Positions 13,336 to 45,708 of a stretch of 64,000 nucleotides of DNA are shown here, in pieces. Under the pieces are notes generated by a model. The model was given only the letters and a program-made list of their open reading frames with translations, was not told the DNA's origin and ran no database searches. Source of the DNA: Promethearchaeota archaeon (GTDB lineage Archaea > Asgardarchaeota > Lokiarchaeia > Sigyniarchaeales > SOKP01); contig JAEOTR010000084.1 of NCBI GenBank assembly GCA_016839705.1, positions 1 through 64,000 on the forward strand, written 5' to 3'. Both the position numbers and the translations under genes were made by a program. Numbering within the stretch: the stretch's first letter is position 1; each line of letters starts with the position of its first letter.

Positions 13336-13934
13336 TTAAGAGAAACTGCTTATCTTAGCGATCATATATAATTTTTTCACTAGAGCTTGAAACGCATCGG
13401 TTACCCTTTGTCCTGTTAAAGCACTTGTTTTGTAATACCCTACAAATCTATTCTCTTTAGCAAATCGCTCTATATTACTATCTGATGTTGGTATATTTGG
13501 ATTCGAACCTAATTCCCCTTCATCAACCAAATCCACTTTATTTCCAAATAATACAATTGGTATATTCCCACAATGTGTTTTTAAGTCATTAAGCCATCTA
13601 GGAACATGTTCATAAGTCTGAGGTTGGTCATGAGAGTGAGAAAAAACAATTATAGCTCCACTACTCCCCGTATAGAATCTTTGGCGGAGTGCTTGAAAAG
13701 AATCTTGACCTGCTATATCCCAAAGATACAATTCAACTTTCTCACCATCAATAACCTCTTCATATTTAGAAAATTGCGTTCCAAGAGTTGAGATATACTC
13801 TTTCTGAAAAGCACCTTGAGTATATTTTTTGATTAATGATGTCTTTCCAACGGCTCCATCTCCAATAATTCCACTCTAAAGAATTTATTCAATAGATCTG
13901 TGATTTTGAAGCCGTAGCCTTTTTCAGTACTCAC
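13336..13934 (-). pseudogene. Ras-like small GTPase, disrupted by a ~29-base insertion
   Basis: This is a close paralog of the intact GTPase at 14093-14647. A GTG at 13934 opens 'STEKGYGFKIT', as in the paralog. About 29 extra bases (13870-13898) then break the frame just before the P-loop. Beyond them the other frame continues 'IIGDGAVGKTSLIKKYT' through 'WDIAGQDSF' (G3), 'GNKVDL' (G4) and 'KTSALTGQ' (G5) to a normal C-terminus. The remaining open frame in the second half lacks the P-loop. It is probably a dead copy of a tandem duplication; the insert is not a recognisable mobile element. Confidence 0.8.
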
Positions 13935-14092: not shown

Positions 14093-14647
14093 TTAAATTG
14101 TAGCTCGTTGGTATAATCTAAATACTAAGGTTTGAAAAGCTTCTTTTACACCCTGACCTGTTAAAGCGCTTGTTTTATAATATTTAATAATCTTATGATC
14201 TTGGGCAAATTTCTTTACATGAACATCTGAAGTTGCATAATTTGGGCTTGTAGCTACTGCATTTTGATCGACTAAATCCGCTTTATTTCCAAATAAAATA
14301 ATAGGGATATTCCCACATGCTTCTCTAATATTTGACAACCATTTATCAATGTGTTGATACGTTTCAAGTTGTTCAGGAGCAAGAGAAAATACAATAATAG
14401 CACCGCTACTTCCTTTATAAAATCTGTCACGTAGAGTGCTAAATGACTCTTGACCCGCTAAATCCCATAAAAACAAATCAACCAATTCTCCATTCAGAAT
14501 TTCTTCATATTTCGAAAATTGCATACCTAACGTAGAAATATAATCTTTTTCAAATGTATTTGATGTATATCTTTTAATAAGTGAAGTTTTACCTACTGCT
14601 GCATCACCCACTACCGTTATTTTAAATCCAAAAGCCTTTTCACTCAT
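14093..14647 (-). CDS. Ras/Rab-like small GTPase
   Basis: 184 residues and intact. G1 'GDAAVGKTS' is near residues 14-22, G2 'STLG' near 38, G3 'WDLAGQESF' near 62, G4 'GNKADL' near 120 and G5 'TSALTG' near 160. No C-terminal cysteine for prenylation is present, so membrane attachment would need another route. Expanded families of such GTPases are a hallmark of Asgard archaea and related to eukaryotic Ras superfamily proteins. A disrupted paralog lies 158 bases downstream on the same strand. The partner (GAP/GEF) is unknown; roadblock proteins in the window are at other loci. Confidence 0.93.
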   Translation of the reverse strand: MSEKAFGFKITVVGDAAVGKTSLIKRYTSNTFEKDYISTLGMQFSKYEEILNGELVDLFLWDLAGQESFSTLRDRFYKGSSGAIIVFSLAPEQLETYQHIDKWLSNIREACGNIPIILFGNKADLVDQNAVATSPNYATSDVHVKKFAQDHKIIKYYKTSALTGQGVKEAFQTLVFRLYQRATI

Positions 14648-23993: not shown

Positions 23994-25070
23994 TCATTCA
24001 ACTTCAGACTTTGAAAGATAACTATAATCTTCCTCTCTTAGTAATCTCATTTCTTTCTTATGCCCAAAATAAACCAAGATACCAAACACACTAAAATATA
24101 TAATGAGAAACAATACAGTAAAGAAGTAATACTTATAGGTAAAACTCATAAAATGCAAAGCACTCCCTAAAATAAATCCAGTAAATAACCTTGATTTAGT
24201 AGTGCTTTTCCTAAATAATAGTCTTTGAGTACCCCAATCAATTATTGCGGGGATCGGTAAAATTATGATCAAAATTAAGGCAATCTCGTTACTGAACTGT
24301 ACCTGGAAAATCCTCTCCATTAAATAGGTAAAGAACATAGAGAAAAGTCCACCAAGTATTACACCGGAACATCTTGAACAAAAGTATATTTTCGTTCTCC
24401 CAAATTTTAGGTAAAAAGTATGATCAGAGTCGGATATTGGATGATGTGTTAAAAACATATAATACAAATGCCTTTCGCTTGCAGCAAAGGTTTTATCATA
24501 AAGAAATAACAATATTGGGATTATAAAGACAACAGAAATTAGAGCTTGAGTAAAATAATTAAAGCCATAATTGATGATCAATATTTCTAAGGTAAATTGA
24601 TCTAGATAAAACAATCCTTGAAGGATGGTAATTATTCCAGCCATGATAAAAGAGATAATAATTAAAACGACAAAGGTATAATATATTTTAATTCCCTCAA
24701 GGTACTTTGATGGCTTGTATTTATATAATCCTACTAATAATCCAAAAATAGCCACAATTAGGCACCACTCAAAGTAAATTTGATTATAAAAAGCCAATTG
24801 ATAGAGAAATTCTGCCATGAAACCATCTATTAAACCATGTATAGAACCCGCTAAAACTGATAAAAATCCAAATAACAATAGTGTAATACCAAACCTAAGG
24901 ATAAATCCTGGAGATTCTATAAAAATGGTTGAGATCGAGCCAAATGTCTCTGCAATATAGACATAAGAGATGATGATAAACATACTTATAAGTAGATTTA
25001 AAAAAATTAATCGAAAATAGCTATTTCTCTCTGCTTCTTGAGGAACTTCATTCAATGTAATTGAATACAC
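23994..25070 (-). CDS. Multi-pass membrane protein with C-terminal DUF2085-like domain
   Basis: 358 residues with a GTG start. About six hydrophobic segments fill the first ~190 residues. The C-terminal part has 'HHPISDSDHTFYL', then 'YFCSRCSGVILGGLF' near 240-254. This matches the DUF2085 pattern, in which an Arg-Cys and a following Gly-rich helix are conserved. Further hydrophobic helices follow. DUF2085 proteins usually stand alone at 100-150 residues, so the N-terminal membrane domain is an extension. The function is unknown. Confidence 0.75.
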   Translation of the reverse strand: MYSITLNEVPQEAERNSYFRLIFLNLLISMFIIISYVYIAETFGSISTIFIESPGFILRFGITLLLFGFLSVLAGSIHGLIDGFMAEFLYQLAFYNQIYFEWCLIVAIFGLLVGLYKYKPSKYLEGIKIYYTFVVLIIISFIMAGIITILQGLFYLDQFTLEILIINYGFNYFTQALISVVFIIPILLFLYDKTFAASERHLYYMFLTHHPISDSDHTFYLKFGRTKIYFCSRCSGVILGGLFSMFFTYLMERIFQVQFSNEIALILIIILPIPAIIDWGTQRLLFRKSTTKSRLFTGFILGSALHFMSFTYKYYFFTVLFLIIYFSVFGILVYFGHKKEMRLLREEDYSYLSKSEVE

Positions 25071-25104: not shown

Positions 25105-25764
25105 TTAATTAAAGATAATATCAAGGTCTTCAATTAGTTGTTTTTTGGTTAACTCAAAACCTTTTCTGAGGACATTTAAAATGATTTTCTTCCCGATCGG
25201 CACGCTTAGAATACTATCATCCCGTTCAACTATTGATATTCCCTCATCATTATAATCCAATTGGCGTTTTAAAGCTTGGTACGCCTTTTCTTTTGTTTTG
25301 AATGCTGCTCTTGACAATTCTGCATAATCATTTATATCTTCATTAACTTTCAGTAATAAAACACTTTCTTCCACTTGTGTAATAAAACATTTCTTTGTTA
25401 CTTCCTTTAAAGATGTATAATTTCGATGATTCTTCTTACACTGTCTATCGGTTTGATCATTCTCCAAGTAGACTGGAAAATTTCTATTAATAATTCTATT
25501 ATATTGTTCTTTTGATATTTCCCCATTAGTAATTAATTCCTTAGCAGAATCAAGAGTTATCTTTATTTGTTCCCGAGTTCCTACACGAGCATCTTTATCA
25601 GACCAGTATTTATAAAAAGATTTTACGATGGGTTTCACAATCACGTTTAAAATCCCACTTTCTAGTTCATCATCAATTAATGACTTTCCATAATTAAGGG
25701 AAATATCCATTTGATCCATCATTCTTCTTTCTAAGATTTTATAATTTCTCTCGATACCTTCCAT
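25105..25764 (-). CDS. Unknown helical protein, tandem paralog B
   Basis: 219 residues from the ATG that aligns with its neighbour (an in-frame ATG seven codons upstream is also possible). It is not recognised. It is paralogous along its whole length to the gene at 25829-26491, sharing 'ERNYKILERRM', 'LIDDELESGILN', 'DQTDRQCKKNHRNYTSLKEV' and 'VPIGKKIILNVLRKGF'. A single conserved Cys-x3-His in the middle could bind a metal or act in catalysis. No signal or membrane segment is seen. It is predicted soluble and mostly helical. Confidence 0.78.
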   Translation of the reverse strand: MEGIERNYKILERRMMDQMDISLNYGKSLIDDELESGILNVIVKPIVKSFYKYWSDKDARVGTREQIKITLDSAKELITNGEISKEQYNRIINRNFPVYLENDQTDRQCKKNHRNYTSLKEVTKKCFITQVEESVLLLKVNEDINDYAELSRAAFKTKEKAYQALKRQLDYNDEGISIVERDDSILSVPIGKKIILNVLRKGFELTKKQLIEDLDIIFN

Positions 25765-25828
25765 GCTAATTTTTCCAAAAAGCAATATAAGAATAATTGT
25801 TAGAATTTTTCATGAGTTTAATTTTTTA

Positions 25829-26491
25829 TTATTTTTGATTATATGTTTCATTTAGCGATTGAAAAAACTCCTTCTTTGTTTTTAAAAAACCTTTCCTTAG
25901 AGTTTTTACTATTATCTTTCTCCCCACAGGTATTTTTAAAATAGAAAGATCCTCTTCAACGATTTTAATTCCTCTATCTGTAAAATTTAATTGTTTCATC
26001 AAATTTTCCTCAGCAACTTCTTTTGATTTAAAAGCAACTCGGCATAAATCACCGTAATCTTCAACATCATCCTTTACTTCTAGAAGCTTTATTACTTCTT
26101 TTAAATAATTTATAAACGTTTTTCTTGCTACTTCTATTATTCTATTATAATTTTTATGCTGTTTACTACATTGTTGCGACGTTTGATCTGCTTCAAGATA
26201 TTTTGGTAAGCTCTCAGTAACAATTCTATTAAAATTGTCATCAGTAATTCCATTCTTTAATAACTTTATACCCGCATCTAAAGTTAGGTTAATTTGTTTA
26301 AGAGTATTTCCTCTTACATCGTTTTGAGCCCAGTTGTCATAGAAAATTTTAACAAGCGGTTTAATTAGAAAATTCAGAAGTCCTGTATCCAATTCCTCAT
26401 CAATAAGTTTTCTGCCCATTAAAATTGAATTTTCCATCTGTTGAATCATTCGTTGTTTTACCAGATGATAATTTCTTTCTAAATAATCCAA
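25829..26491 (-). CDS. Unknown helical protein, tandem paralog A
   Basis: 220 residues, not recognised. It aligns end to end with the next gene: 'ERNYHLVKQRM', 'LIDEELDTGLLNFLIKPLVK', 'DQTSQQCSKQHKNYNRIIEV', 'VPVGRKIIVKTLRKGF'. The two are separated by 64 bases on the same strand, so this is a tandem duplication. They have diverged to roughly 40% identity by eye, so both copies are probably under selection. They may form a heterodimer, which is a guess. Confidence 0.78.
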   Translation of the reverse strand: MDYLERNYHLVKQRMIQQMENSILMGRKLIDEELDTGLLNFLIKPLVKIFYDNWAQNDVRGNTLKQINLTLDAGIKLLKNGITDDNFNRIVTESLPKYLEADQTSQQCSKQHKNYNRIIEVARKTFINYLKEVIKLLEVKDDVEDYGDLCRVAFKSKEVAEENLMKQLNFTDRGIKIVEEDLSILKIPVGRKIIVKTLRKGFLKTKKEFFQSLNETYNQK

Positions 26492-26676: not shown

Positions 26677-29600
26677 ATGCCTTATCACTTAAAGGTTTTA
26701 ATCTTAGGAGATCCTGACATTATTCATTTCTATGTGTCTAGAGCTTTTGGTGAGCCCGGAGAAGATAAAGAAACATATTTTGAATGGTATAAAGAAGTAA
26801 AAGTATTAGAAGATACATGTGCTTTAGAAATAGATGCAATTACAAACATATCTGCTGATTTAGACGAAATACTAGACATGGTAGATGGGATCGTTTACTT
26901 TTTAAACCCTTTGAACGAGGAGGAATCTGAATTATTTCAAATGGTTCTTCCTGACATTTTTGCCGTGAAGCGAGAAATACCCACAGTTGTTATCTTTTAT
27001 GATCAAAATGGGATTCTTCCTTTATCGGTAAATGAGCTACTAACTAATATTTGGGTCAGTTATCCAAGTCTAGAAGCTTTTGTAAATCTGAATCCAAAAG
27101 AATTTCACCAAGCGCTTCAATCTCTATGTATGGCTATTATAAATGGGGATACTCCTTTAAATATAGAGAATGCCTGGATGAGATTTCCAATCTTTATTCA
27201 GATGGCTAACGTGTACTTTGCCAATAATAATTACTATTATGCAGCTCAAGCTGTAAAAAAAGCTGCAGCAATTGCAGAAATTTACAATAAAGAAGAATAT
27301 TATATTATATTAGACCAAGCAGCTAATCTTTATTCAAAAATTAACTTATATTTAGAAGCCAGCAAGATCTTAGAAGAAATAGATAAAAAAAAATCACTAA
27401 ATTTTAAGAAATTATATGCTGATGCCATGATTAGAGAGGGAAATATCCATTTTAATAAACGGGAATTTGAAACCGCTGCTAAGCAATATGAAAGAGCGGG
27501 CCAATGGTTAAGTATAGAATTATTAGATAAAGAAATGGTTAGTGAGGCATTTAGATTAGCTATCAATTCTTGGATATCTGCTTGCCAAGTTGAGAGAGCC
27601 TTTAGAATCCTTGAAAATTTACCTCACGAAGAATCACAAAATATATTAAATCGCATTTCTGAAAAAATTGGAGCCGCAGCAGAATTTTTAGTAGAGGCTA
27701 AAAAGTATGAGTTAGCAAGAGAGCAATTATACTTCGCAATAAATAAATATCAAAGAGAAGCACTTTCAGATCATCTAAAATACCTTACTGATAAATTAAC
27801 TGAAATTTTAATTCAGATTTTTAAAATTCAAGTAAAAACTAATGAAATTTATGCTGCAAAATATACTTATGATGAAATTGAGAATATGTGGGATTCTTAT
27901 AAAGTGGAAACAACTGATTTAGATTCAATTATAAAGATACTAATTAATTCATTCTTAGCAAAAAATAACTTTGGAATCGCAACAGTCTTAATAAACAAAT
28001 TAAATTCTTTGATGTTAAAACAAGATTTAAGCAAAATTAGTGCAGAATTAGAAGATAAATATAATGATTCAATAAAAAAAGAAATCAGGGATTATATTAA
28101 GAAAGGTGAAAAAATTCTTGCTGAGTTTGTTAAAGCTGAATTAGATATAATAACAGATATGAATAGAAATAAAATAGAAGAAGCTAACGCATTTATTACA
28201 GAGAATAAACACCTCAAAGCCGGAAATCTTTTATTGAACCAAGCGAATTACCTAAAAAAAATAGGAAAGGATGATATAACGGATCAAATCCTCACAAAAT
28301 CTTTGGACACATTTTTGGAAGGTGAAATTTTCGATGAATTTTTTATTACTTTTAACAGCTTGTCAAAAGAAATGAAAGGAAAGTACTTAATCAGGATTTT
28401 TCAGGTTTTTCTTGATAAATTAAAAGGTATTGAAAAATTAGACGATTATGAAAGAAAAGAAAAAATTTTAGAAGAATCAAATCGGATTTATCGTAGCCAT
28501 GAATTATATGATGAATCAAAGGAAATCAGTTTAATGTTCATAAAAAATATCAAAAAAGAAGCTTTAGTAATACTCGAAAATGAAGAAAATAGTTCTGGGA
28601 TTAAAAAAGTTAATGAATTAGTAAAGAAAGCTGCTAATGTATCATCAGCTTATTTAGATAAGGAAGAAAGAGCTCAAGTAAATTTTGATGAAATATATAA
28701 GAAGATTTCCGAAATTTATATTGATTTAGACGACTTACATTCTGCTCAAACATATAATGATAGAATTGAGAATAAAGCTTATACCAAAGAGATTCATAAA
28801 AAGATAGCTGAACTTGAAGCGGAAAAAAGTAGTGAGTGGACAAAAAAAGCAGAAGAATCCCGAGAAGAAGAGGTTTCGAAAGAAAGTCTTTCAATTATTG
28901 AAAGTAAAGCGAGAGAAGCCTTTTTAGACAAAAGTAACGAATATAAAGGAAGGAAAGCCCTAATAAAATCATATTTTCAAGAATGCTTAAATCATCTCAA
29001 AAACAACGAATTTGAAAAATCAATCTTAGAGTACAAAAATACAATCAGTCGGTTAATTAATATAAAAAAATATAATCTAGCAGGTGTTTCATTAGCAGTA
29101 GTAAGCTTATTGCTAATAAGGGAAAATAAATTTGAAGAAATTAAAGAAATATTAGAAAAAACAAAAGAAAAACTTTCTGGATTGGATATAGAAACTTTCT
29201 CAGTTACCTTAATAGAATACATAATTCTAGTAAAAAAGTTCCAAGATAAAAACAAGGTTGACAAGGTTATTTCGCTCATGAAAAATCTCCCATTATTTGA
29301 AGAAGAATTGAAAATTCTTTATGATTATCTAGGAGAAGAATATAAGAAAGAAGGAAAAGGTGAACCAATTGAAAAAAAAAAATTGGTGGAAATAGATCAA
29401 AGATATGGTAAACTCGAATCTAAAAAGGGAGATGCTAGAACAAGTAAGGATATTCTATTCAAGCAAAGAAAAGTAATGAGAAAACGATTATATTCAACCA
29501 TATTAGAGTTATTAGAAGCGCAAGAATACGAAGCAGCGGCAACAGAATATTTACAATTAGCAAACTCACGTTTAAAAATGAAAGACTTCGGAACTAGTTC

Positions 29601-29859
29601 TTTAATGATACTCTTACATGGATTAAGCCTCTTAAAGGCAGAAGAATCTTTAAAATTAATTAAAAAGAACATAACTGATTTTTTAAATAGCCTAGGAGTT
29701 AATAAGAAATTGATTGAAGAAACATTTTATATTATGCTTATAATGTTTATAATTGATATTAAAATATACTCTTTAGATAAGTATTTACCAAAAATTAAAG
29801 AGATGTTAGATTTACTACCGTTATTTGAGAAAGAAAATCAGCTTATAGATATCTTATAA
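26677..29859 (+). CDS. Pseudo-GTPase head fused to a long TPR/alpha-solenoid
   Basis: 1060 residues. Residues 1-155 look like a Ras-like fold without nucleotide-binding motifs: 'HLKVLILGDPDII' replaces the P-loop strand (no GxxxxGK), 'DMVDGIVYFLNPL' resembles the strand after switch II, and 'IPTVVIFYDQNG' sits where NKxD would be. From ~165 on it is a repeat solenoid of helical hairpins with TPR signatures such as 'YYYAAQAVKKAAAIAEIYNK' and 'FETAAKQYERAGQWLSIELL', recalling alpha-SNAP/TPR proteins. There are charged coiled-coil stretches near 640-760. No membrane segment or signal peptide is present. It is likely a scaffold in the cytoplasm; the partner is unknown. Confidence 0.8.
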   Translation: MPYHLKVLILGDPDIIHFYVSRAFGEPGEDKETYFEWYKEVKVLEDTCALEIDAITNISADLDEILDMVDGIVYFLNPLNEEESELFQMVLPDIFAVKREIPTVVIFYDQNGILPLSVNELLTNIWVSYPSLEAFVNLNPKEFHQALQSLCMAIINGDTPLNIENAWMRFPIFIQMANVYFANNNYYYAAQAVKKAAAIAEIYNKEEYYIILDQAANLYSKINLYLEASKILEEIDKKKSLNFKKLYADAMIREGNIHFNKREFETAAKQYERAGQWLSIELLDKEMVSEAFRLAINSWISACQVERAFRILENLPHEESQNILNRISEKIGAAAEFLVEAKKYELAREQLYFAINKYQREALSDHLKYLTDKLTEILIQIFKIQVKTNEIYAAKYTYDEIENMWDSYKVETTDLDSIIKILINSFLAKNNFGIATVLINKLNSLMLKQDLSKISAELEDKYNDSIKKEIRDYIKKGEKILAEFVKAELDIITDMNRNKIEEANAFITENKHLKAGNLLLNQANYLKKIGKDDITDQILTKSLDTFLEGEIFDEFFITFNSLSKEMKGKYLIRIFQVFLDKLKGIEKLDDYERKEKILEESNRIYRSHELYDESKEISLMFIKNIKKEALVILENEENSSGIKKVNELVKKAANVSSAYLDKEERAQVNFDEIYKKISEIYIDLDDLHSAQTYNDRIENKAYTKEIHKKIAELEAEKSSEWTKKAEESREEEVSKESLSIIESKAREAFLDKSNEYKGRKALIKSYFQECLNHLKNNEFEKSILEYKNTISRLINIKKYNLAGVSLAVVSLLLIRENKFEEIKEILEKTKEKLSGLDIETFSVTLIEYIILVKKFQDKNKVDKVISLMKNLPLFEEELKILYDYLGEEYKKEGKGEPIEKKKLVEIDQRYGKLESKKGDARTSKDILFKQRKVMRKRLYSTILELLEAQEYEAAATEYLQLANSRLKMKDFGTSSLMILLHGLSLLKAEESLKLIKKNITDFLNSLGVNKKLIEETFYIMLIMFIIDIKIYSLDKYLPKIKEMLDLLPLFEKENQLIDIL

Positions 29860-29888: not shown

Positions 29889-30812
29889 TTAATCTACAAT
29901 ATTTGCGTACTTTTGCAAGTCCTTTACTCTCATCCGCAAAGTCACTTCAGTTACACGTGCTAATTTTGAGATTTCCTTCTGGGTTCTGTTTTCATTGCTT
30001 ATTTTTGAAGCGATATAAATAGCGGCGGCAGCAATTCCTTTTGGGTCCTTACCTGCTGAATTAAATCCACTCTCTCTTGCTTTATCAATCAATTTTACCG
30101 CTATATTCCTACATTGCATTGAAAGTTTTAACTCTTCATTAAATTTATCAACATAGCGATCTGCTGAGAAGTGTTGGACTTTCATTCCTAATTTTGGGAG
30201 AACTTCCATAAGTATTAAGCGATAACTTTTAATGACTTTCTTTTTAGGAATTTGTGCGACTTTAGTTATTTCTTCGGCAGTTCTAGGTATTCCATGAACT
30301 CTTAATGCCGCAAATATCGAGGCTGATAATAATGTATCTATACTTCTTCCCATGGTTAATTTCTTTTTAACGGTTTGGGTATAGATTCGAAGGGCATCCT
30401 CTGCAACAGCATCCGGAATTCCTAATCTTTTCTGTAAACGTTGTAAATTTGGTAAAGCTATCCATAAATTTCTCTCATAACTGGTTGTTAAAGATCTATG
30501 GATTTTCGCTAACCGGTTAAATTTCGATTTATATTTAGGACTTAGTAAGGTACCTCTTGCGTCTCTTGATCCTCTGATAATCGTTCTGGGACCTATAGGG
30601 CTATAAACTCTTTCACTACTTTTCCTCTTCTGAATTTCTTCTTGCGTGAAAGCTCTCCGAGGACTATCATCAAGAATTCTAGAATATACAAAACCACAGT
30701 TTAAACAAACGTAAAATCCATCTTCTTCACTAATCTTTGAATTATCACAACAAGGTCTTCCTTCCTCTCCATTCTCTTCAAAAAAATCATTATCTTCAGA
30801 ATGAGACGGCAT
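29889..30812 (-). CDS. tfb: Transcription initiation factor B (TFB / TFIIB)
   Basis: 307 residues. TFB recruits RNA polymerase to TBP-bound promoters. The N-terminal ribbon region is 'GRPCCDNSKISEEDGFYVCL' near 18-37 followed by 'NCG'. The downstream CX2C is present, but the first pair is CC rather than CX2C, so zinc binding may be altered. The B-reader/linker region ('SPRRAFTQEE'...'YSPIGPRT') and two cyclin repeats follow, with the helix-turn-helix near the C-terminus ('RTQKEISKLARVTEVTLRMR') that reads the BRE. It stands alone on the minus strand. The family call is certain; whether it is the main TFB or a variant is not. Confidence 0.95.
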   Translation of the reverse strand: MPSHSEDNDFFEENGEEGRPCCDNSKISEEDGFYVCLNCGFVYSRILDDSPRRAFTQEEIQKRKSSERVYSPIGPRTIIRGSRDARGTLLSPKYKSKFNRLAKIHRSLTTSYERNLWIALPNLQRLQKRLGIPDAVAEDALRIYTQTVKKKLTMGRSIDTLLSASIFAALRVHGIPRTAEEITKVAQIPKKKVIKSYRLILMEVLPKLGMKVQHFSADRYVDKFNEELKLSMQCRNIAVKLIDKARESGFNSAGKDPKGIAAAAIYIASKISNENRTQKEISKLARVTEVTLRMRVKDLQKYANIVD

Positions 30813-31017: not shown

Positions 31018-32256
31018 ATGTCTTCTGAAAGTTCTGATATAATCGACGTGTTTTCTAAGTTTTTAGATCCGAAATTAACAAAGGTTAATAAATTACACTC
31101 AATTGATGATGTATTAAAATTACCAATTCACTCATATAAGTTTGTAGATAAAGAAGAATCAACTATAATGAAACAGTTACTAGAGATTTCTAGTATAGGG
31201 GATGCTTCTAAACTGAATAAGGAAAATCCTTTTGAAAGTCTGATTAAAATAGAAGAATCAGACGAATCTTTAGAATTGACGGAGAACTTGAAGAAAAAGA
31301 TTGAAGCGTTAAAAAAAAAATACCCAACCTTAGAAAAAACATTGAAAAAAACAATTACAATAAGCTCACTCATTTCAAGTGTTAATAAAGAAAAAGAAGG
31401 AATAGAAGTAATAGGACAAAAAGTTCTCGTGGCAGGACTCGATGAAGCAGGCAAAACCGCTACACTTTCAAAATTCGGTGGCCGACTAGGTATTACTGAT
31501 ACTATTGCAACACACCCAACAAGAGGAGTTGTTCGGATGAAATTTGGGAGTTCCAATTTGAACTTATACATTTGGGATCTAGGAGGGCAGGAAGAATATC
31601 GTGAAAGGTATTTAAGCAATCCAGAGCAATATTTTATTCAATTAGATTTACTCCTCTATGTAATTGATGTGCAAAACCCAGACCGATTCGATGAATCTCT
31701 CGAATACTTTGATGGAATCCTTGATTCAATAATAATGTTAGAAGAAAAACCTTACATTTTAATTTTCATCCATAAATTTGACCCAGATATTAAAGGGGAC
31801 CCAAAGATTCAGCTAAATGTTGAACTATTGAAGGATAATTTAAACGAACTTATTAAAGGCAAGGATTATGATTTTGATATTGAGATCTATTTAACATCTA
31901 TATATTCGATGATTTCCCGTGAACCACAATTTGCTAAATATCTTAAAAATCTCATGAGCTCACATTATTCCCTTACAGATCCAACAGTTAAGAAAGTTGA
32001 AGGTCTTGGAAAAACTTTAGAAGAAACTCTTAATGCGGTTATTCGTTTATCAGAAAGCATTTCTTCACAGTTAAATGATCTTGATAGTCGTCTTCGTGCC
32101 TTAGAGGCGGGTGCATTCCAAGCGGCTCAAAGTGGATTACCTTTGGAAATATCTAATCCTTCCCAAAGTACATCTAGACAAGAGGGAAATGCAAGATTAA
32201 ATGTTCTCAATGAATTAAAAGATCTTTTTAGCAAGAGAAAAAGCCTAGACCTTTAA
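31018..32256 (+). CDS. Arf-like GTPase with long N-terminal extension
   Basis: 412 residues. Residues 1-135 are an extension of unknown fold. The GTPase domain follows: G1 'GLDEAGKTA' near 140, G2 Thr in 'HPTRGV', G3 'WDLGGQEEY' near 186 and G4-like 'HKFD' near 250 (His where Asn is usual). WDLGGQ is the Arf/SRbeta/Gtr signature. The C-terminal ~75 residues start with a coiled coil ('SSQLNDLDSRLRALEAGAFQ'), then a Ser-rich linker. The classical N-terminal myristoylation Gly of Arf is absent. Asgard genomes hold many such GTPases; the role is unknown. Confidence 0.88.
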   Translation: MSSESSDIIDVFSKFLDPKLTKVNKLHSIDDVLKLPIHSYKFVDKEESTIMKQLLEISSIGDASKLNKENPFESLIKIEESDESLELTENLKKKIEALKKKYPTLEKTLKKTITISSLISSVNKEKEGIEVIGQKVLVAGLDEAGKTATLSKFGGRLGITDTIATHPTRGVVRMKFGSSNLNLYIWDLGGQEEYRERYLSNPEQYFIQLDLLLYVIDVQNPDRFDESLEYFDGILDSIIMLEEKPYILIFIHKFDPDIKGDPKIQLNVELLKDNLNELIKGKDYDFDIEIYLTSIYSMISREPQFAKYLKNLMSSHYSLTDPTVKKVEGLGKTLEETLNAVIRLSESISSQLNDLDSRLRALEAGAFQAAQSGLPLEISNPSQSTSRQEGNARLNVLNELKDLFSKRKSLDL

Positions 32257-45252: not shown

Positions 45253-45642
45253 TCAGATCACCATACTGATTTTTTGGATATAATCTTCCATATGATTAAA
45301 AATGAAACTAGAATCTACTTGATTATCTATTATGAATATCAAAAATACCTTTTTCTCTTTAATTTCTACCATTAATATTGACGTCTTCTCTAACTCAGCA
45401 ATAATTTTAACAATTGTTTGATTACCCATTGTTTCACCAAGACCAACTGCACTCTCAAAAACTGATGCACACATAGATGTTAATTTTTTACAATCTGCCT
45501 TATTTCCAATATTCTCATAAATAATTTCCCCGTTTCTATTTGCAAATATAATCCCTTTAAATTTCCCTTTTACCTTTAATTCATCCAGTATTAAAATTAA
45601 TTCACTGATATCATCTTTGTTAATTTTCGTTGGTGTGGTCAT
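45253..45642 (-). CDS. Roadblock/LC7 domain protein
   Basis: 129 residues from ATG 45642 (a TTG three codons upstream is in frame). The pattern is that of the roadblock/LC7/MglB fold: an initial helix 'DISELILILDELK', a strand 'FKGIIFANRNGEIIYEN', a central helix 'LTSMCASVFESAVGLGETM', and the strands 'TSILMVEIKEKKVFLIFI'. Such proteins are GTPase partners or GAPs in bacteria and eukaryotic Ragulator. The cognate GTPase is not adjacent. Confidence 0.8.
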   Translation of the reverse strand: MTTPTKINKDDISELILILDELKVKGKFKGIIFANRNGEIIYENIGNKADCKKLTSMCASVFESAVGLGETMGNQTIVKIIAELEKTSILMVEIKEKKVFLIFIIDNQVDSSFIFNHMEDYIQKISMVI

Positions 45643-45708
45643 AATCTGCAATAGTCTAAGTATAGATAATTAAATTAATTAATTACTACATTTAACTATT
45701 GAATATAT

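Follow-up and report, generated by a model that had tools for sequence, protein, structure and literature searches.

A Lokiarchaeal protein family with a predicted, degenerate Ras-like domain joined to a TPR-like alpha-solenoid

Results

A conserved gene of one Lokiarchaeal order

The window, by which we mean the whole 64,000-nucleotide stretch of Promethearchaeota DNA that was analysed, carries a forward-strand reading frame that starts with ATG and runs through 1060 codons with no break; the coordinates and the length given for it in a preliminary description of this DNA proved exact. The gene, the features within it and its neighbours are listed in Table 1. Identity between the protein and its full-length relatives is roughly 37-66% within its own family, f1, and drops to 16-30% in f2-f4 (three further families); synteny of the gene is conserved inside f1. 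The full-length relatives and the conserved synteny rule out a chance reading frame, and the gene is real. Since the orthologues of f2-f4 keep the head and the full length at such low identity (in f4, at 16-20%, head and solenoid are both present), we conclude that evolution has kept head and arm together. The family is unrecognised by Pfam, NCBIfam or PDB: Pfam returned a single sub-threshold TPR_2 match at residues 248-274 (16.5 bits, the TPR gathering cut-off being 27) and nothing else, NCBIfam had no match to the 1060-aa protein, and profile or single-sequence searches of PDB with the protein and with its head gave nothing significant.

Table 1. Coordinates, in the window, of the pseudoGTPase-solenoid gene, its parts and its neighbours
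Feature	Position	Strand	Basis
DUF2085 membrane protein adjoining A4 genes	23994..25070	-	domain search
A4 family, copy 2	25105..25785	-	synteny, family searches
A4 family (220 aa), copy 1, divergent neighbour	25829..26491	-	synteny, family searches
Whole gene, 1060-aa protein, stop codon included	26677..29859	+	ORF reading; orthologues
Predicted head, residues 1-160, b1-a1-b2-b3-a2-b4-a3-b5-a4-b6-a5	26677..27156	+	model, PDB fold matches, profile matches to Ras GTPases
P-loop (G1) equivalent, residues 11-18, GDPDIIHF	26707..26730	+	motif count, alignment, conservation
G3/switch II equivalent, residues 56-61, TNISAD, no DxxG	26842..26859	+	motif count, alignment
G4 equivalent, residues 108-113, YDQNGI replacing NKxD	26998..27015	+	motif count, alignment, conservation
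G5 equivalent, residues 135-137, FVN replacing SAK	27079..27087	+	alignment
Head-solenoid junction NAWMR, residues 165-169	27169..27183	+	alignment of 26 members
Predicted alpha-solenoid, residues 166-1056, helix-turn-helix, TPR-like	27172..29844	+	model; weak TPR_2; generic TPR fold matches
C-terminal module copy 1, residues 756-886, LPLFEEE near end	28942..29334	+	module comparison
C-terminal module copy 2, residues 926-1060	29452..29856	+	module comparison
TFIIB, convergent neighbour	29889..30812	-	Pfam, synteny

A profile built from 26 members found relatives in 71 of the 79 genomes of the Lokiarchaeal order, one of which (G008) holds only a 113-aa relic (L116:6203-6544, +), and a credible relative in none of 149 Asgard genomes outside it. 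This run scored two candidates per genome, such that a very distant relative could escape; two weak matches outside the order, in G051 and G202, are at the level of the repeats, and archaea beyond Asgard were covered by a scan for close relatives only. The alternative that the preliminary description had set against its own reading, a TPR protein common among other archaea, is thus ruled out by the 149 genomes. A single-sequence search gave a match in 44 of 58 relatives, and the nine named relatives found are all MAGs of Candidatus Lokiarchaeota/Lokiarchaeia. Normally there is one copy per genome; a short fragment at G006:C26:15261-15734 is apparently another relic.

In two genomes, G034 (L112, G034:C1:176000-190000) and G085 (L113, G085:C200), precisely this gene has gone from the locus: a gap of about 120-130 bp separates TFIIB from A4, and the neighbours are intact. 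Since it was lost cleanly from a locus otherwise intact, the gene is dispensable and not essential to the order, and a lineage of this kind offers a natural comparison for finding partners by co-loss profiling.

A head of predicted Ras fold

Residues 1-172 were modelled with AlphaFold2 from nine sequences, and the best model (pLDDT 79, pTM 0.79) contains eleven secondary structure elements in the order of Ras. The best 50 Foldseek matches of this model in PDB are all Ras/Rab small GTPases, with E values of 5e-9 to 3e-8 and TM scores of 0.64-0.71, and the predicted fold, which the preliminary description had proposed to check in this way for residues 1-160, is GTPase-like. The three motifs that it had read in Ras order fall on the predicted strands b1, b4 and b5, and a canonical Asgard Ras GTPase has KIIIVGDAAVGKT, ADGCIAVFDLT and IPCVVLGNKSD at the aligned positions. 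Just two of the five head models were good (pLDDT 79, 73, 57, 55 and 41), the models were built on shallow alignments of 9 and 10 sequences, and the full-length run did not reproduce the head confidently, pLDDT being below 50 over most of it.

When a profile of the head was run against 58 whole genomes, Ras-family GTPases came second only to the family's own members, with a best E of 3e-8. The best of these matches, co-linear over positions 2-157 of 162, is an Asgard Ras protein of 175 aa whose P-loop, GDAAVGKTS, is intact, and all eight GTPase matches checked with Pfam, the best one included, are Ras (PF00071), Arf or Gtr1. In the reverse direction, Pfam GTPase models gave no significant match to the heads of 26 members, the best being Gtr1_RagA (E 0.022, in 2 of the 26). 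As the next matches of the head profile are small GTPases, the head reads as a GTPase by descent, and as judged from these matches the Asgard Rab/Rag/MglA-like small GTPases are its likely source. Fold comparison and profile search, two independent lines, rule out a head unrelated to GTPases.

Other truncated or degenerate GTPase sequences were seen in the window and elsewhere. A 131-aa Ras-family reading frame at 13336-13731 (-) matches the Ras profile at positions 51-160 only, the P-loop half being missing; it lies near an intact Ras GTPase (14093-14647), and a similar truncated reading frame occurs at L112:1774-2157. Contig C52 of the same genome encodes a Ras-family protein (L110:558-1160, -) whose degenerate P-loop, GEPEVEKTA, possibly represents a halfway stage of decay. 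The window also encodes a 132-aa protein (45253-45651, -) with a weak Roadblock/LC7 match just below the Pfam cut-off.

The GTP-binding motifs are lost throughout the family

In none of the 73 distinct relatives did we find GxxxxGK[ST] within the first 80 residues, DxxG in the switch II region or [NT]KxD at G4, which bears out the earlier statement that no nucleotide-binding residue is kept. An intact P-loop was sought in distant members, and none was found. When the head is aligned with canonical Asgard GTPases, I-H-F stands at the G-K-S/T positions and Y-D-x-N at the N-K-x-D position; with another aligner the P-loop contains a gap of five residues instead, so that the P-loop is either substituted or shortened. 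Conservation amounts to 2.15-2.37 bits in the loops equivalent to the pocket, of which those of the P-loop, G4 and G5 have 2.15-2.27 bits, and is lowest in the a1-b2 loop (1.84 bits), as against 2.7-3.4 bits in b1, b3, b4 and b5, with a peak of 3.44 bits at VDGIVYFLN. The loops thus rank below the sheet core, the reverse of an active GTPase, a pattern as would be expected if selection acts on the fold and not on the pocket.

Class (i) pseudoGTPases, as defined by Stiegler and Boggon (PMC5593906), combine a GTPase fold and homology to small GTPases with the lack of at least one G motif and of nucleotide binding. The head has the fold by prediction and fold comparison and the homology by its profile matches, and it lacks G1, G3 and G4 in all 73 relatives and G5 by alignment; neither the P-loop nor the NKxD of an active Ras-superfamily GTPase is there. 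Because a Ras fold and GTPase homology go with lost G motifs and with pocket loops less conserved than the sheet core, the head is, as far as sequence and model can tell, a pseudoGTPase by descent, and we infer that it would bind no nucleotide in the test tube.

Some degenerate G domains do bind nucleotide, for example human LIC1, which binds GDP, whereas the fungal LIC does not (PMC4359372), and the tyrosine and the aspartate of the G4 equivalent are fairly conserved (Y in 18 and D in 16 of 26 members). The head could accordingly be imagined to bind nucleotide or another ligand in an atypical manner and to regulate the solenoid; with G1, G3 and G4 all gone in every relative, and with the P-loop equivalent among the least conserved stretches, we regard this as very unlikely.

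A TPR-like solenoid with duplicated C-terminal modules

Head and solenoid meet at a conserved NAWxR, of which W167 is invariant in 26 diverse members and A166 and R169 are conserved in at least 90%. Conserved residues of the head include W126 and E133. The model shows helix-turn-helix structure all the way from residue 166 to 1056; pLDDT is 75-92 over most of this length, and weak joints occur near 716-730 and 891-899. The tandem antiparallel helix pairs of a TPR solenoid are seen in this model and in its fold matches; the earlier assignment holds for the helical repeat, while of TPR signatures only the one weak TPR_2 match was found. The same description had likened the repeat to alpha-SNAP, a likeness that we have dropped, as Pfam gives no alpha-SNAP match and none is among the best 50 PDB fold matches.

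A module of about 130 residues occurs twice near the C terminus and three times in relatives of about 1245 aa, the third copy in many relatives sitting between the other two; the tree requires at least six changes between two and three copies.

The best fold matches of the whole model are the TPR chains of Ski3, Ctr9 and IFT-A, and TFIIB adjoins the gene in f1. Both would suit a Ski3- or Ctr9-like TPR protein at work in complexes for chaperoning, RNA or transcription, whose head is just a structural cap or dimerisation element. However, the whole-chain TM is about 0.1, which is what any long TPR arm would give, the head is as well conserved as the arm, and among the stretches compared TFIIB is adjacent in f1 only and was not seen beside the gene in f2-f4. 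We therefore consider this reading unlikely.

Neighbouring genes suggest a possible partner

Two tandem paralogues of a family of about 220 aa, termed A4, lie upstream on the opposite strand (25105-26491, -), with invariant residues that include D102, H112 and N114 of copy 1; the family has no significant Pfam or NCBIfam match. A4 lies near the gene in f1, f2 and f3, no more than a few kilobases off in the last two, and on other contigs in f4. Further families of the class, in which the pseudoGTPase-solenoid protein was not found, have A4 as well. This wider spread and the lack of linkage in f4 rule out A4 as an exclusive, strictly linked partner. The DUF2085 gene is near in f1 and f2. A Gtr1-like GTPase gene (31018-32256) adjoins in f1, but in f2-f4 it lies at a great distance or on a different contig, and being unlinked there it is ruled out as a linked partner. 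A possible operon partner in two f2 genomes is the adjacent gene, which has the same orientation and lies 20-87 bp away (L047:2700-5027, -; L048:4029-5915, -); by eye its product has a gelsolin-like N-terminus (YIW[VI]G) followed by coiled-coil or KAEEAR repeats, and Pfam gives no gelsolin match for it. Taken together, synteny suggests, without fixing, a partner.

The preliminary description had pointed to eukaryotic trafficking and coat assemblies. In such an assembly, coat-like or remodelling membranes, the head would contact active Asgard GTPases or membrane proteins, and there is no shortage of the former, as 74 sequences related to small GTPases are given for MK-D1 in PMC10933270; the A4 genes nearby in three families and the membrane-protein gene in two of them also fit. 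But A4 linkage is not strict, and neither the protein nor its immediate neighbours contain a trafficking domain recognised by Pfam. We judge a role of this kind quite unlikely, and the analogy to eukaryotic coats would be an idea only. Of the earlier interpretation, the degenerate Ras head without P-loop and the TPR-like solenoid stand, and alpha-SNAP and the link to trafficking find no support, no trafficking gene having been recognised beside the gene.

Discussion

Based on our data we propose that the protein is a pseudoGTPase scaffold, in which a dead Ras/Rab-like head on a TPR-like solenoid provides fixed docking and helps organise a Lokiarchaeal complex, a reading that we hold to be rather probable. 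A Ras/Rab-like GTPase domain would have lost all nucleotide-binding motifs while keeping its fold, and would have become fused to a long TPR-like alpha-solenoid. Without GTP/GDP cycling, the head may act as a fixed module for protein docking that engages a partner or packs back against the protein's own solenoid, and the solenoid with its two or three C-terminal modules may bind other subunits of the complex that the protein would organise. The scaffold role, that is, a non-switching docking head on a platform for several subunits, we infer by analogy with the class (i) pseudoGTPases CENP-M, fungal LIC and p190 pG1. That the protein forms the core of an undescribed Lokiarchaeal complex, with the dead Ras-like domain docked on or beside the solenoid, is a more tentative suggestion, to which we give somewhat less than even chances; it would mean that Asgard archaea, and not eukaryotes alone, already turned GTPases into fixed structural modules. 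The protein is a concrete, expressible bait for a Lokiarchaeal complex.

The scaffold or bridging role of class (i) pseudoGTPases is established in eukaryotes (PMC5593906, PMC4080450, PMC4359372). The pseudoGTPases treated there, CENP-M, dynein LIC and p190RhoGAP, are eukaryotic, and where their role is known it lies in bridging partners or keeping assemblies together; the dead-switch scaffold design has so far been known chiefly in eukaryotes. An order-wide archaeal family with such a domain fused to a solenoid would, if confirmed, indicate that small GTPases did more than multiply in Asgard archaea: a dead one was also put to structural use. The preliminary description recognised the architecture in no described Asgard system, and in agreement with this a literature search for an Asgard pseudoGTPase or TPR-GTPase fusion turned up nothing relevant within a coverage that is incomplete (bioRxiv and subscription papers lie outside it). 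As far as literature and libraries show, pseudoGTPases are thus a known kind, and the archaeal architecture of head and solenoid in one chain, like the family itself, is undescribed.

Among known systems, the Asgard Rab/Rag/MglA-like small GTPases and their roadblock or longin fusions belong to the same superfamily and clade; PMC10933270 has them for the most part as P-loop GTPases, either single or joined to roadblock/longin, and its section on them does not mention a TPR solenoid with a P-loop-less head. The generic TPR solenoids of Ski3, Ctr9 and IFT-A subunits share the long helix-turn-helix arm and some TPR signature, but those matches are without such a head, and the sequence of the Lokiarchaeal arm is below Pfam TPR cut-offs. 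The pG1/pG2 domains of p190RhoGAP (PMC5593906) are degenerate G domains of a large multidomain protein with every G motif degraded, joined to RhoGAP and not to a solenoid. The Ras-like G domain of the dynein light intermediate chain (PMC4359372) bridges partners, in its fungal form without nucleotide binding; it differs in its attached region and its insertions, and the human form still binds GDP.

The closest analogue is CENP-M of the human kinetochore (PMC4080450, PMC5593906), because CENP-I, to which it binds, was modelled on an importin-beta/Ran template as an alpha-solenoid (PMC4080450). CENP-M, too, descends from an active GTPase and has kept the small-GTPase fold while losing the essential nucleotide-binding motifs; it goes with an alpha-helical solenoid and is required for complex assembly. 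Unlike the Lokiarchaeal protein, in which head and solenoid form one chain, CENP-M is a separate chain that binds CENP-I in trans, and it has lost b2, which is modelled in the Lokiarchaeal head; the Lokiarchaeal solenoid, moreover, is TPR-like and not HEAT/importin-like, and its host is an archaeon. We would accordingly regard CENP-M as a mechanistic analogue and claim no family relationship.
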